Source: Marmoricola sp. OAE513
GTDB lineage: Bacteria > Actinomycetota > Actinomycetes > Propionibacteriales > Nocardioidaceae
Assembly: GCF_040546585.1 (NCBI RefSeq)
Contig: NZ_JBEPOC010000001.1
Coordinates: 496,001-560,000 of the forward strand
DNA: 64,000 nucleotides
Reading direction: 5' to 3'
In this document: in pieces, positions 27,979 to 54,966 of the stretch
Position numbering within the stretch: position 1 is the stretch's first letter
Layout of the letters: each line of letters opens with the position of its first letter
Notes under the pieces: model-generated
The model's database searches: none
What the model was told of the DNA's origin: nothing
What the model saw: the letters and a program-made list of their open reading frames with translations, nothing else
Position numbers and translations under genes: made by a program

Positions 27979-29241
27979 ATGGCTGAAGGACTCCACGAAC
28001 CGCACCCGGCGCACCCCGCCGAAGCGCTGGTCGGTGCGTTGGAGTCGGCGTTTGCGGCGTTCGACGGGTCGCCGGTGTGGACGTTGACCTCGTCGCAGCT
28101 CGCTGACCTGGTGCCTCGGATCGGTGCGGTCACCAACCGCCTGGAGGCTCTCGGGCTGGCCGTGCTCCGGGAGGCGGACCGGCACCAGGTCGGGGACGCT
28201 GTCGGGGCGGCGAACACCGGTGCATGGTTCGCCAACGTCACCCGCACCACCAAGCCGGCCGCTGCAGGCGCGATCTCGCTGGCAGCACGGTTGGACGCCG
28301 ACGAGCACACGACCGTACGTTCGGCCTTCGCCGCCGGGGCGGTCGCCCGGGACCAGGCACGCGTCATCATCAAGGCCGTCGACGCGCTCCCCGTCGAGCT
28401 GGTCGAGCCCGCCGTACGCCGTCAGGCCGAGGCACACCTCGTCGCGTTCGCCGAGCACCACGACGCCCGCGACCTCCGGTTCCTGGGCCGGCGGATCCTC
28501 GAGTACGTCGCGCCGGAGGTCGCGGAGGCGCACGAACGAAAGATCCTGGAGAGGGAAGAAGCACTCGCCAACGCGAACGCGTCGTTCTCGATGAGCCCCG
28601 ACGGCGCAGGTTCCCTGGTCGGTCGGTTCAAGATCCCGGTGCTCGCCGGGAAGATGCTCGCCAAGCACCTCAACGCCCTCGCCGCCCCCGGGCACCAGGC
28701 CGCGACGACCGGGACCGTCGACCTGACCACGGCCCGCCCGCTGCGGCTCGGCCAGGCCTTCGTCGAGTACATCGAAACGCGGTCCGCTGAGGACACACCG
28801 AGGGCCGGCGGCCTCGCTGCCACGATCGCAGTCACCATGACGATGGCAAGCCTCCTCGGGGTCGAACAGGCGGCCACCCTCGACACCGGAGACCGGATCT
28901 CCGCCTCCGAGGCCCGCCGCCTGGCCTGCGAGGCCGGGATCATCCCTGCGGTGCTCGGCGGGAGGTCCCAGCCCCTCGACGTGGGCCGGCAGTCGCGGTT
29001 CCACACCGGTCCGCAACGGGTGGCGATCGCCCTGCGCGACAAGGGGTGTGTGGTCAAGGACTGCGACAAGACGCCCGACCAGTGCCACGTCCACCACCTC
29101 ACAGCCTGGTCACGAGGTGGTCGCACGACCGTCGACGACGCGATCATGATCTGCGGTCCCCACCACCGGGTCGCGCACGACGCCAGGTTCCAGATGAAGA
29201 CCGACAAGCACGGCAAGGTCATCTTCAGCCGGAGGACGTGA
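27979..29241 (+). CDS. DUF222/HNH endonuclease-domain protein (13E12 type)
   Basis: A 420-residue protein with an N-terminal DUF222 helical region (about 20-300) and a C-terminal HNH nuclease motif (CVVKDCDKTPDQCHVHHLTAW ... GPHHRVAHD, given in part) with zinc-ligand cysteines. These proteins are present in many copies in Nocardioides, Mycobacterium and relatives (13E12 repeat family). They may be remnants of mobile or self-targeting elements, but their role is unknown. No inverted repeats or integrase are seen around this copy. Confidence 0.88.
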   Translation: MAEGLHEPHPAHPAEALVGALESAFAAFDGSPVWTLTSSQLADLVPRIGAVTNRLEALGLAVLREADRHQVGDAVGAANTGAWFANVTRTTKPAAAGAISLAARLDADEHTTVRSAFAAGAVARDQARVIIKAVDALPVELVEPAVRRQAEAHLVAFAEHHDARDLRFLGRRILEYVAPEVAEAHERKILEREEALANANASFSMSPDGAGSLVGRFKIPVLAGKMLAKHLNALAAPGHQAATTGTVDLTTARPLRLGQAFVEYIETRSAEDTPRAGGLAATIAVTMTMASLLGVEQAATLDTGDRISASEARRLACEAGIIPAVLGGRSQPLDVGRQSRFHTGPQRVAIALRDKGCVVKDCDKTPDQCHVHHLTAWSRGGRTTVDDAIMICGPHHRVAHDARFQMKTDKHGKVIFSRRT

Positions 29242-34072: not shown

Positions 34073-34107
34073 CAGGCTGGTCCTTCGGTGGGTCGGTCGG
34101 GACAAAC

Positions 34108-34134
34108 AAAAAACCTCCCGCTGGACGAGAGGTT
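34108..34134 (-). terminator. Attenuator terminator before cimA
   Basis: On the transcript, AACCTCTC pairs with GGGAGGTT (one G-U) around a 7-base loop and runs into six or more T residues (plus-strand A-tract 34108-34113). It lies between the Ile-rich leader peptide and the cimA start, 36 bases before the ATG. Confidence 0.9.
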
Positions 34135-34173
34135 GGCGCGGCGGGGGCCCGATCTTCGCGGGCTTCCGTCGCG

Positions 34174-34203
34174 CTAGACGATAATGATGGTGGCGGAGTG
34201 CAC
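34174..34203 (-). promoter_or_regulatory. Leader peptide MHSATIIIV for cimA attenuation
   Basis: A 9-codon frame beginning GTG at 34203 and ending TAG at 34174, with three consecutive Ile codons then Val. No ribosome site precedes it; CAGACT (34215-34210) and CGGACA (34238-34233) at 17-base spacing would place transcription start at the GTG, so it may be leaderless. The terminator at 34108-34134 follows, as in classical attenuation by charged tRNA-Ile. Confidence 0.75.
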
Positions 34204-34273
34204 ATGAGGAGTCTGCCACACGGCACTGTCGATGTCCGAAGAGGAGTCCCATGACGCTGTACCGGAGAACCGA

Positions 34274-54827: not shown

Positions 54828-54864
54828 CTAGATCCTCTGTGTCTGGGTGGTGCTCGTGTCCAAC

Positions 54865-54897
54865 AAAAAACCCCTCGGCCATCATGGCAACGAGGGG
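54865..54897 (-). terminator. Attenuator terminator before ilvB
   Basis: CCCCTCG (54871-54877) pairs with CGAGGGG (54891-54897), extended by GCCAT/ATGGC inside, and runs into six T residues on the transcript (A-tract 54865-54870). It lies 38 bases before the ilvB start and after the leader peptide. Confidence 0.92.
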
Positions 54898-54924
54898 CGG
54901 ACGCGTGTGCGGAAGGCCGGGGCC

Positions 54925-54966
54925 TCAGCTCACGCGTCGCGTGCGTACAAGAATCTCAAAACGCAT
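54925..54966 (-). promoter_or_regulatory. Leader peptide MRFEILVRTRRVS for ilvB attenuation
   Basis: A 13-residue frame with consecutive Ile-Leu-Val codons, ATG at 54966 and TGA at 54925. It is the typical actinobacterial ilvB leader: slow translation at Ile, Leu or Val codons should favour an antiterminator over the hairpin at 54865-54897. Confidence 0.9.

Follow-up and report, generated by a model that had tools for sequence, protein, structure and literature searches.

The window, as we use the word here, is the whole 64,000-nucleotide stretch of Marmoricola sp. OAE513 DNA that was analysed. Within it, the cimA leader element lies on the minus strand, flanked by cimA and a divergent ORF (Table 1). 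The cimA product scores 634.9 bits against TIGR00977, the citramalate synthase equivalog (cut-off 450), and is the only gene in the genome to exceed that cut-off; its closest named relatives, among the matches listed, are from Nocardioides and Marmoricola. The leader ORF reads GTG CAC TCC GCC ACC ATC ATT ATC GTC TAG and encodes fMet-HSATIIIV. An ATG at 34205 overlaps the leader start but lies in a different frame. The preliminary description had placed an Ile-Ile-Ile-Val leader and a T-run terminator before cimA, and both are present in the sequence; its span of 34108–34203 runs from the leader start through the end of the T6 run, and the residues of its MHSATIIIV stand as read, with the correction that the start codon is GTG and not ATG. 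Elsewhere in the window, an ORF on the plus strand (27979–29241) resembles by eye the actinobacterial repeat proteins of the 13E12 type, which contain HNH.

Six nt separate the last T of a -10-like CAGACT from the leader GTG, so that the transcript start and the start codon may coincide and the message may be leaderless. A sigma-70 consensus scan at the cimA leader returned no promoter and did not pick up CAGACT. In the 601 nt scanned for terminators there is one terminator-like site, compared with a mean of 0.1 in shuffles. Its stem has 10 pairs and a loop of 3 nt, with TTTTGTTTGT next, and it begins 1 nt past hairpin 1 (hp1); the cimA start is about 30 nt downstream. hp1 itself adjoins the leader stop codon and starts 5 nt past the last Ile codon. 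An intrinsic terminator therefore sits between the leader ORF and cimA, as in an attenuator. Together, hp1 and the terminator fold at -37 kcal/mol (z -3.63), which none of 200 shuffles matches; with the leader ORF added to the fold, z is only -1.75 and 11 of 200 shuffles are equally good. No Rfam 15 covariance model matched at the cimA leader at the gathering threshold, nor when E was relaxed to 5, and a T-box, ilvB-OMG or other Rfam family was rejected on this ground, as far as Rfam models these.

Table 1. Positions of the cimA and ilvB leader features in the window
Feature	Position	Strand	Basis
Leader ORF, fM-HSATIIIV	34174..34203	-	sequence; comparative frame test
Putative sensor Ile codons ATC ATT ATC (n=3)	34180..34188	-	sequence; codon survey
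-10-like CAGACT, TGG before	34210..34215	-	same position recurs in relatives
hp1, basal GCGCG/CGCGC	34136..34174	-	folding, alignment
Intrinsic terminator: stem 34134-34112 and U-tract TTTTTTGTTTG (34113-34103)	34103..34134	-	terminator scan
cimA, citramalate synthase, 524 aa	32498..34072	-	TIGR00977 match
Second scaffold example, before ilvB (acetolactate synthase)	54861..54966	-	R2, folding
ilvB leader MRFEILVRTRRVS*	54966-54925	-	window sequence
ilvB hp1 and terminator	54937-54861	-	R2, folding

Conservation and covariation of the cimA leader element

Upstream regions of cimA were collected from related genomes (of 98 searched, 80 gave a match, and 30 loci were taken), from a further set comprising the best 80 of 584 confirmed relatives, from the class (296 genomes searched, 240 with a match) and from 60 extra hand-chosen regions drawn from both genome lists. 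There were 193 cimA loci with at least 150 nt upstream, 180 of them distinct. We defined a strict anatomy as a start codon with a -10, followed by a run of two or more Ile codons, a stop codon and a terminator. This anatomy is found in 121 of the 180 distinct upstreams, compared with none of the 180 reverse strands and none when the set was mononucleotide-shuffled 20 times, so the arrangement is not a product of chance. Apart from the Ile codons, the leader peptide is variable in relatives, and at the Ile sites ATC and ATT interchange. The preliminary description had proposed a search of relatives for the Ile codons as its check; they are conserved together with the terminator before cimA, beyond genus and family, and the claim withstands it.

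Re-reading covered 62 cimA loci that an earlier, different pattern had overlooked; L037 and L087, also missed, lie outside these 62, and L010, which is without upstream sequence, was set apart. With a second pattern, 31 of the 62 show a short ORF that contains two Ile codons, and a codon-free model, R2, finds the hairpin and terminator in 46, leaving 16 upstreams with neither hp1 nor terminator. These 16, like the negative promoter scan, count against the attenuator reading set out below. At 17 loci that have the hairpins and no proper Ile-Ile ORF, reading by eye shows that an ATT lies 8–9 nt before hp1 in 12 cases, lies further off in four and is absent in one.

For covariation, 145 elements were reduced to 92 by removing those shorter than 65 nt, those longer than 120 nt and near-identical ones, and 90 of these were aligned, the longer L091 and L092 being omitted. 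The alignment shows two hairpins in which 94.0% of cells pair. Changes on both sides are seen in 13 of 18 pairs; two-sided changes fill 174 cells, compared with 37.3 in shuffled alignments, a value reached in none of 500 shuffles, and pairing is lost when the partners are slid. Both hp1 and the terminator stem covary. The geometry is equally constrained: in 107 of the 145 elements the last Ile codon and the start of hp1 are exactly 5 nt apart, and the gap between hp1 and the terminator is 0 nt in 63, 1 nt in 80 and 2 nt in 2. These features bear on a rival explanation, in which ribosome stalling acts not on termination but on the accessibility of the cimA start. Translation attenuation is mentioned for cysteine genes of M. 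smegmatis in the available part of PMC13236596. However, a strong, conserved terminator with its U-tract stands between the leader and the cimA start, and its stem is among those that covary; we regard control at the level of translation as very improbable.

Putative sensor codons and the scaffold before other genes

Two models were used to look for the element elsewhere. R1 was trained on cimA elements alone, codons included, and R2 describes hp1 and the terminator only and was trained on 51 cimA elements and 15 others (7 ilvB, 4 leuS, 2 leuA and 2 ACT-like). Because R2 recovers some of its own training elements, independent recovery is shown by the wider set and the ilvA-like genes alone; the first ilvB, leuS and leuA examples had already been turned up by R1, whose training included no gene but cimA. 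At E up to 0.01, R1 has matches in 212 of the 296 genomes of the class, a count of genomes and not of cimA positions; at E up to 0.001, R2 has matches in 76 of 98 genomes of the class. In the window, R2 scores 57.4 bits at cimA, which was in the training set, and 36.5 bits at ilvB, which was not; the codon-free two-hairpin scaffold is recognised at both genes.

The loci surveyed included 20 matches whose place was not known as cimA (3 proved to be cimA) and 60 further ones taken by rank, with places already covered skipped. The 110 loci represent 107 elements, because L250/L277, L251/L272 and L256/L276 are duplicates. The downstream gene is ilvB at 41 loci, cimA at 39, leuS at 21 and leuA at 3 (two elements); at 4 loci it is threonine ammonia-lyase-like, and at 2 it encodes a small ACT-matching protein, below the cut-off.

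We found that the codons beside hp1 track the gene: Ile before cimA, Leu and Val, mostly with GTA, before ilvB, and a Leu run, most often with CTT as its last codon, before leuS and leuA. Codons were counted at the 95 of 110 loci with an I/L/V run, and the resulting counts are approximate because the automatic hp1 finder failed or misplaced hp1 at some loci (15 of 110 are without a run, L256 and L325 are misplaced by eye, and the run of L349 is out of the leader frame). Ile accounts for 78 of the 109 I/L/V codons in cimA leaders and Leu for 51 of 54 in leuS leaders, while the ilvB leaders contain 61 Leu, 52 Val and 25 Ile. Codons that are rare in eight genes of the window are prominent here: ATT makes up 50 of the 78 Ile codons in cimA leaders (1 of 142 in the eight genes), GTA 37 of the 52 Val codons in ilvB leaders (7 of 307) and CTT 22 of the 51 Leu codons in leuS leaders (7 of 292). 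This match of codon to gene is comparative evidence for the importance of the leader codons, and such sensor codons may be of use in gene annotation.

The reading frame was compared in the same loci. A start codon (ATG or GTG) accompanied by a -10 lies in the frame of the run at 88 of 95 loci and in the other two frames at 2 and 2; when the -10 is not required, the figures are 90, 17 and 38. By the frame and codon comparisons, the leader ORF appears to be translated and is rich in end-product codons. One could instead suppose that the short ORF is no sensor, with a terminator that is either constitutive or meant for a different transcript and Ile codons that are a sequence-level element. The negative promoter scan and the variability of the rest of the peptide would agree with this, but the near confinement of start and -10 to the frame of the run, the tracking of the gene by codon identity and the interchange of ATC and ATT all speak against it, and we consider it the most improbable of the explanations.

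The proposed attenuation and its relation to known systems

A trp-type ribosome-mediated attenuator consists of end-product codons, a stop codon and an intrinsic terminator. The cimA leader shares all three, and differs in that folding revealed no mutually exclusive antiterminator. We hold with good confidence that transcription of cimA is attenuated at this element through its leader peptide, in response to charged tRNA-Ile. Since the arrangement recurs in relatives and the codons suit the gene, cimA is very probably switched on at Ile shortage. Attenuation by charged tRNA-Ile had been suggested in the preliminary description, and gains support, at the level of sequence comparison, from the conserved Ile codons and from codons that change with the gene.

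In the mechanism that we propose, the transcript would start at the GTG or no more than two bases from it, and its leaderless end would be used for initiation by a 70S ribosome. With ample Ile-tRNA, the ribosome would pass ATC ATT ATC to the UAG, where its footprint (taken at the size used in PMC13236596) would lie over the 5' arm of hp1; with this arm covered, the terminator would form and transcription would end near 34104. In relatives whose ORF extends into hp1, a ribosome at the stop codon would likewise be expected to cover the 5' arm. With scarce Ile-tRNA, the ribosome would stall at the Ile codons, most sharply at the rare ATT, and its leading edge would be near the foot of hp1, leaving hp1 folded and allowing more polymerases to enter cimA. 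hp1 may weaken termination through contact, stacking or base competition; a possible role as a pause hairpin was considered too.

M. tuberculosis ilvB1 is, by analogy, an experimental precedent for the cimA leader. According to the available part of PMC13236596, its terminated RNA is ~120 nt long and changing LVVI to AAAA abolishes induction; the proposal made there is that a stall at LVVI permits an anti-terminator, which a ribosome at the stop codon blocks. Compared by description, the ilvB1NC attenuator and the cimA leader both have a leader ORF with branched-chain codons and a terminator before the gene, and GUA, a regulatory codon there, corresponds to the GTA that is frequent in the surveyed ilvB leaders. 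The M. tuberculosis system differs in its gene, ilvB rather than cimA, in its RNA length, in sensing several amino acids and in having been tested experimentally. R1 matches a leader of this kind, L263, with LLVVI, in a genome without a cimA match; it is probably of mycobacterial type. The Corynebacterium ilvBNC leader and ilvB-II, as portrayed in parts of PMC10272879 and PMC11857589, also have an ORF with branched-chain codons and a terminator hairpin, and in C. glutamicum ilvBNC the antiterminator and terminator bases are adjacent (PMC11857589), as are hp1 and the terminator at cimA. In contrast to cimA, the ilvB-II leader ORF covers most of the first stem, ilvBNC and ilvB-II have a third, anti-antiterminator hairpin, and the two Corynebacterium hairpins have a boundary trinucleotide in common, where at cimA there is a gap of 0–1 nt and no shared pairing is predicted. 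The M. tuberculosis ilvB1 logic and the adjacent hairpins of C. glutamicum together suggest that hp1 is the counterpart of the known antiterminator.

The Streptomyces ilvL, leuL2 and leuL1 leaders are leaderless, as the cimA leader may be, and similar to it in having branched-chain codons and terminators, there before ilvB and leuS. Leader peptides with terminators have been described in Actinobacteria before ilvB, leuS and trp genes (PMC8079986 and PMC1262725); the available sections of these two sources and of PMC10272879 do not name cimA. In the LEU element of leuA, a conserved pseudoknot pairs Leu codons with the Shine-Dalgarno box; the element is presented in the accessible part of PMC1262725 as lacking a typical terminator, whereas the cimA leader has one. 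The role of leader codons is disputed: in S. coelicolor ilvB, altered leader codons were without effect, as told in part of PMC1262725, which counts against the attenuation reading of the cimA leader, whereas in M. tuberculosis they are needed (PMC13236596, in part). We found no report of cimA attenuation in open full-text papers, a scope that most subscription papers lie beyond, in line with the preliminary description, which knew of no such case; a term search of the available text of PMC12452182, PMC4833913, PMC2864571 and PMC8269248 returned nothing on cimA leaders. Leader attenuators before ilvB and leuS have already been described, and what appears to be new from the sequence is cimA as the regulated gene.

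A further point against the attenuator reading is that no antiterminator that excludes the terminator was predicted when the 5' end was hidden at nine positions in the 145 elements. Mean terminator pairing in the cimA elements is 0.95–0.98 whichever 5' part is hidden, the terminator 5' arm is seldom paired beforehand, and hp1 and the terminator coexist in nearly all of them. The partition-function folds show no competing fold as a rule, and on this evidence a classical antiterminator is unlikely as a general feature. The survey loci were folded with four hidden positions; the ilvA rows were excluded, as the terminator was misplaced there (probability 0), and it is probably misplaced too in some ilvB rows with means of 0.65–0.68. 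A sub-variant of the attenuator reading is that the leader is trp-type in the classical sense, and that its true antiterminator, paired with the terminator arm, escaped the folding; a pseudoknot, co-transcriptional intermediates or an hp1 extended by tandem G-A pairs would allow this. The C. glutamicum ilvBNC hairpins, which are adjacent and compete for the boundary trinucleotide (PMC11857589, in part), would fit it, as would the ilvB element L263, whose hp1 folds into the terminator 5' arm. Against this, the terminator 5' arm is held before the 3' arm appears in only 5 of 35 cimA elements when unobstructed and in 0–2 of 35 with ribosome positions imposed, and folding of the cimA element in the window shows no such structure. 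We consider this sub-variant possible but on balance unlikely. The absence of a predicted antiterminator poses a clear experimental question.

If the attenuator reading is true, the committed step of the citramalate pathway is directly under charged tRNA-Ile across much of Actinomycetota, and a single RNA scaffold links cimA, ilvB, leuS, leuA and ilvA-like genes. The preliminary description had also taken the leader as support for citramalate as the isoleucine source. This is partly supported: the leader argues that cimA is part of the supply, but the genome also encodes a threonine ammonia-lyase (TIGR01127, 459.4 bits, cut-off 378.75), so that isoleucine may be made by another route as well.

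Further genes behind the scaffold

In a phylum sample of 197 genomes, R1 matches are found in 47 at E up to 0.001; of these 47 genomes, eleven belong to the class of the window. By tblastn, 20 matches outside the class precede ilvB (12), cimA (3) or leuA (1) or are without a match (4); two of these last four are leuB-like, with Ile codons. A more general proposal, which we advance tentatively and rather doubt, is that a single Actinomycetota scaffold, a ribosome-gated hairpin abutting a terminator (0–1 nt at cimA), is an exchangeable amino-acid sensor in which a few codons are swapped for cimA, ilvA-like, ilvB, leuA, leuB-like and leuS genes, and in which hp1 may lower termination by contact or stacking, without an antiterminator.

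In family f19 (L335, L349, L355 and L360), the scaffold precedes a threonine ammonia-lyase-like gene, the entry to the other isoleucine route, a call for which one of the four, a fragment, was tested. By eye, these leaders each have one Ile codon, ATT, in the usual place, for example M-P-Q-H-L-M-V-I-T*. L248 and L249 are Ile-codon leaders before a protein of 103–107 aa with an ACT_4 match below the cut-off, and both genomes carry a cimA element too.

A leuB enzyme acts in the citramalate route too. Outside the class, L383 and L387 have leaders ending in VIIIE* and IVIIR* before a leuB-like dehydrogenase. At L376, also outside the class, Val, Leu and Ile codons stand before the hairpin and the next ORF is by eye prephenate dehydratase-like, a gene that may be there by chance or as an indirect neighbour.
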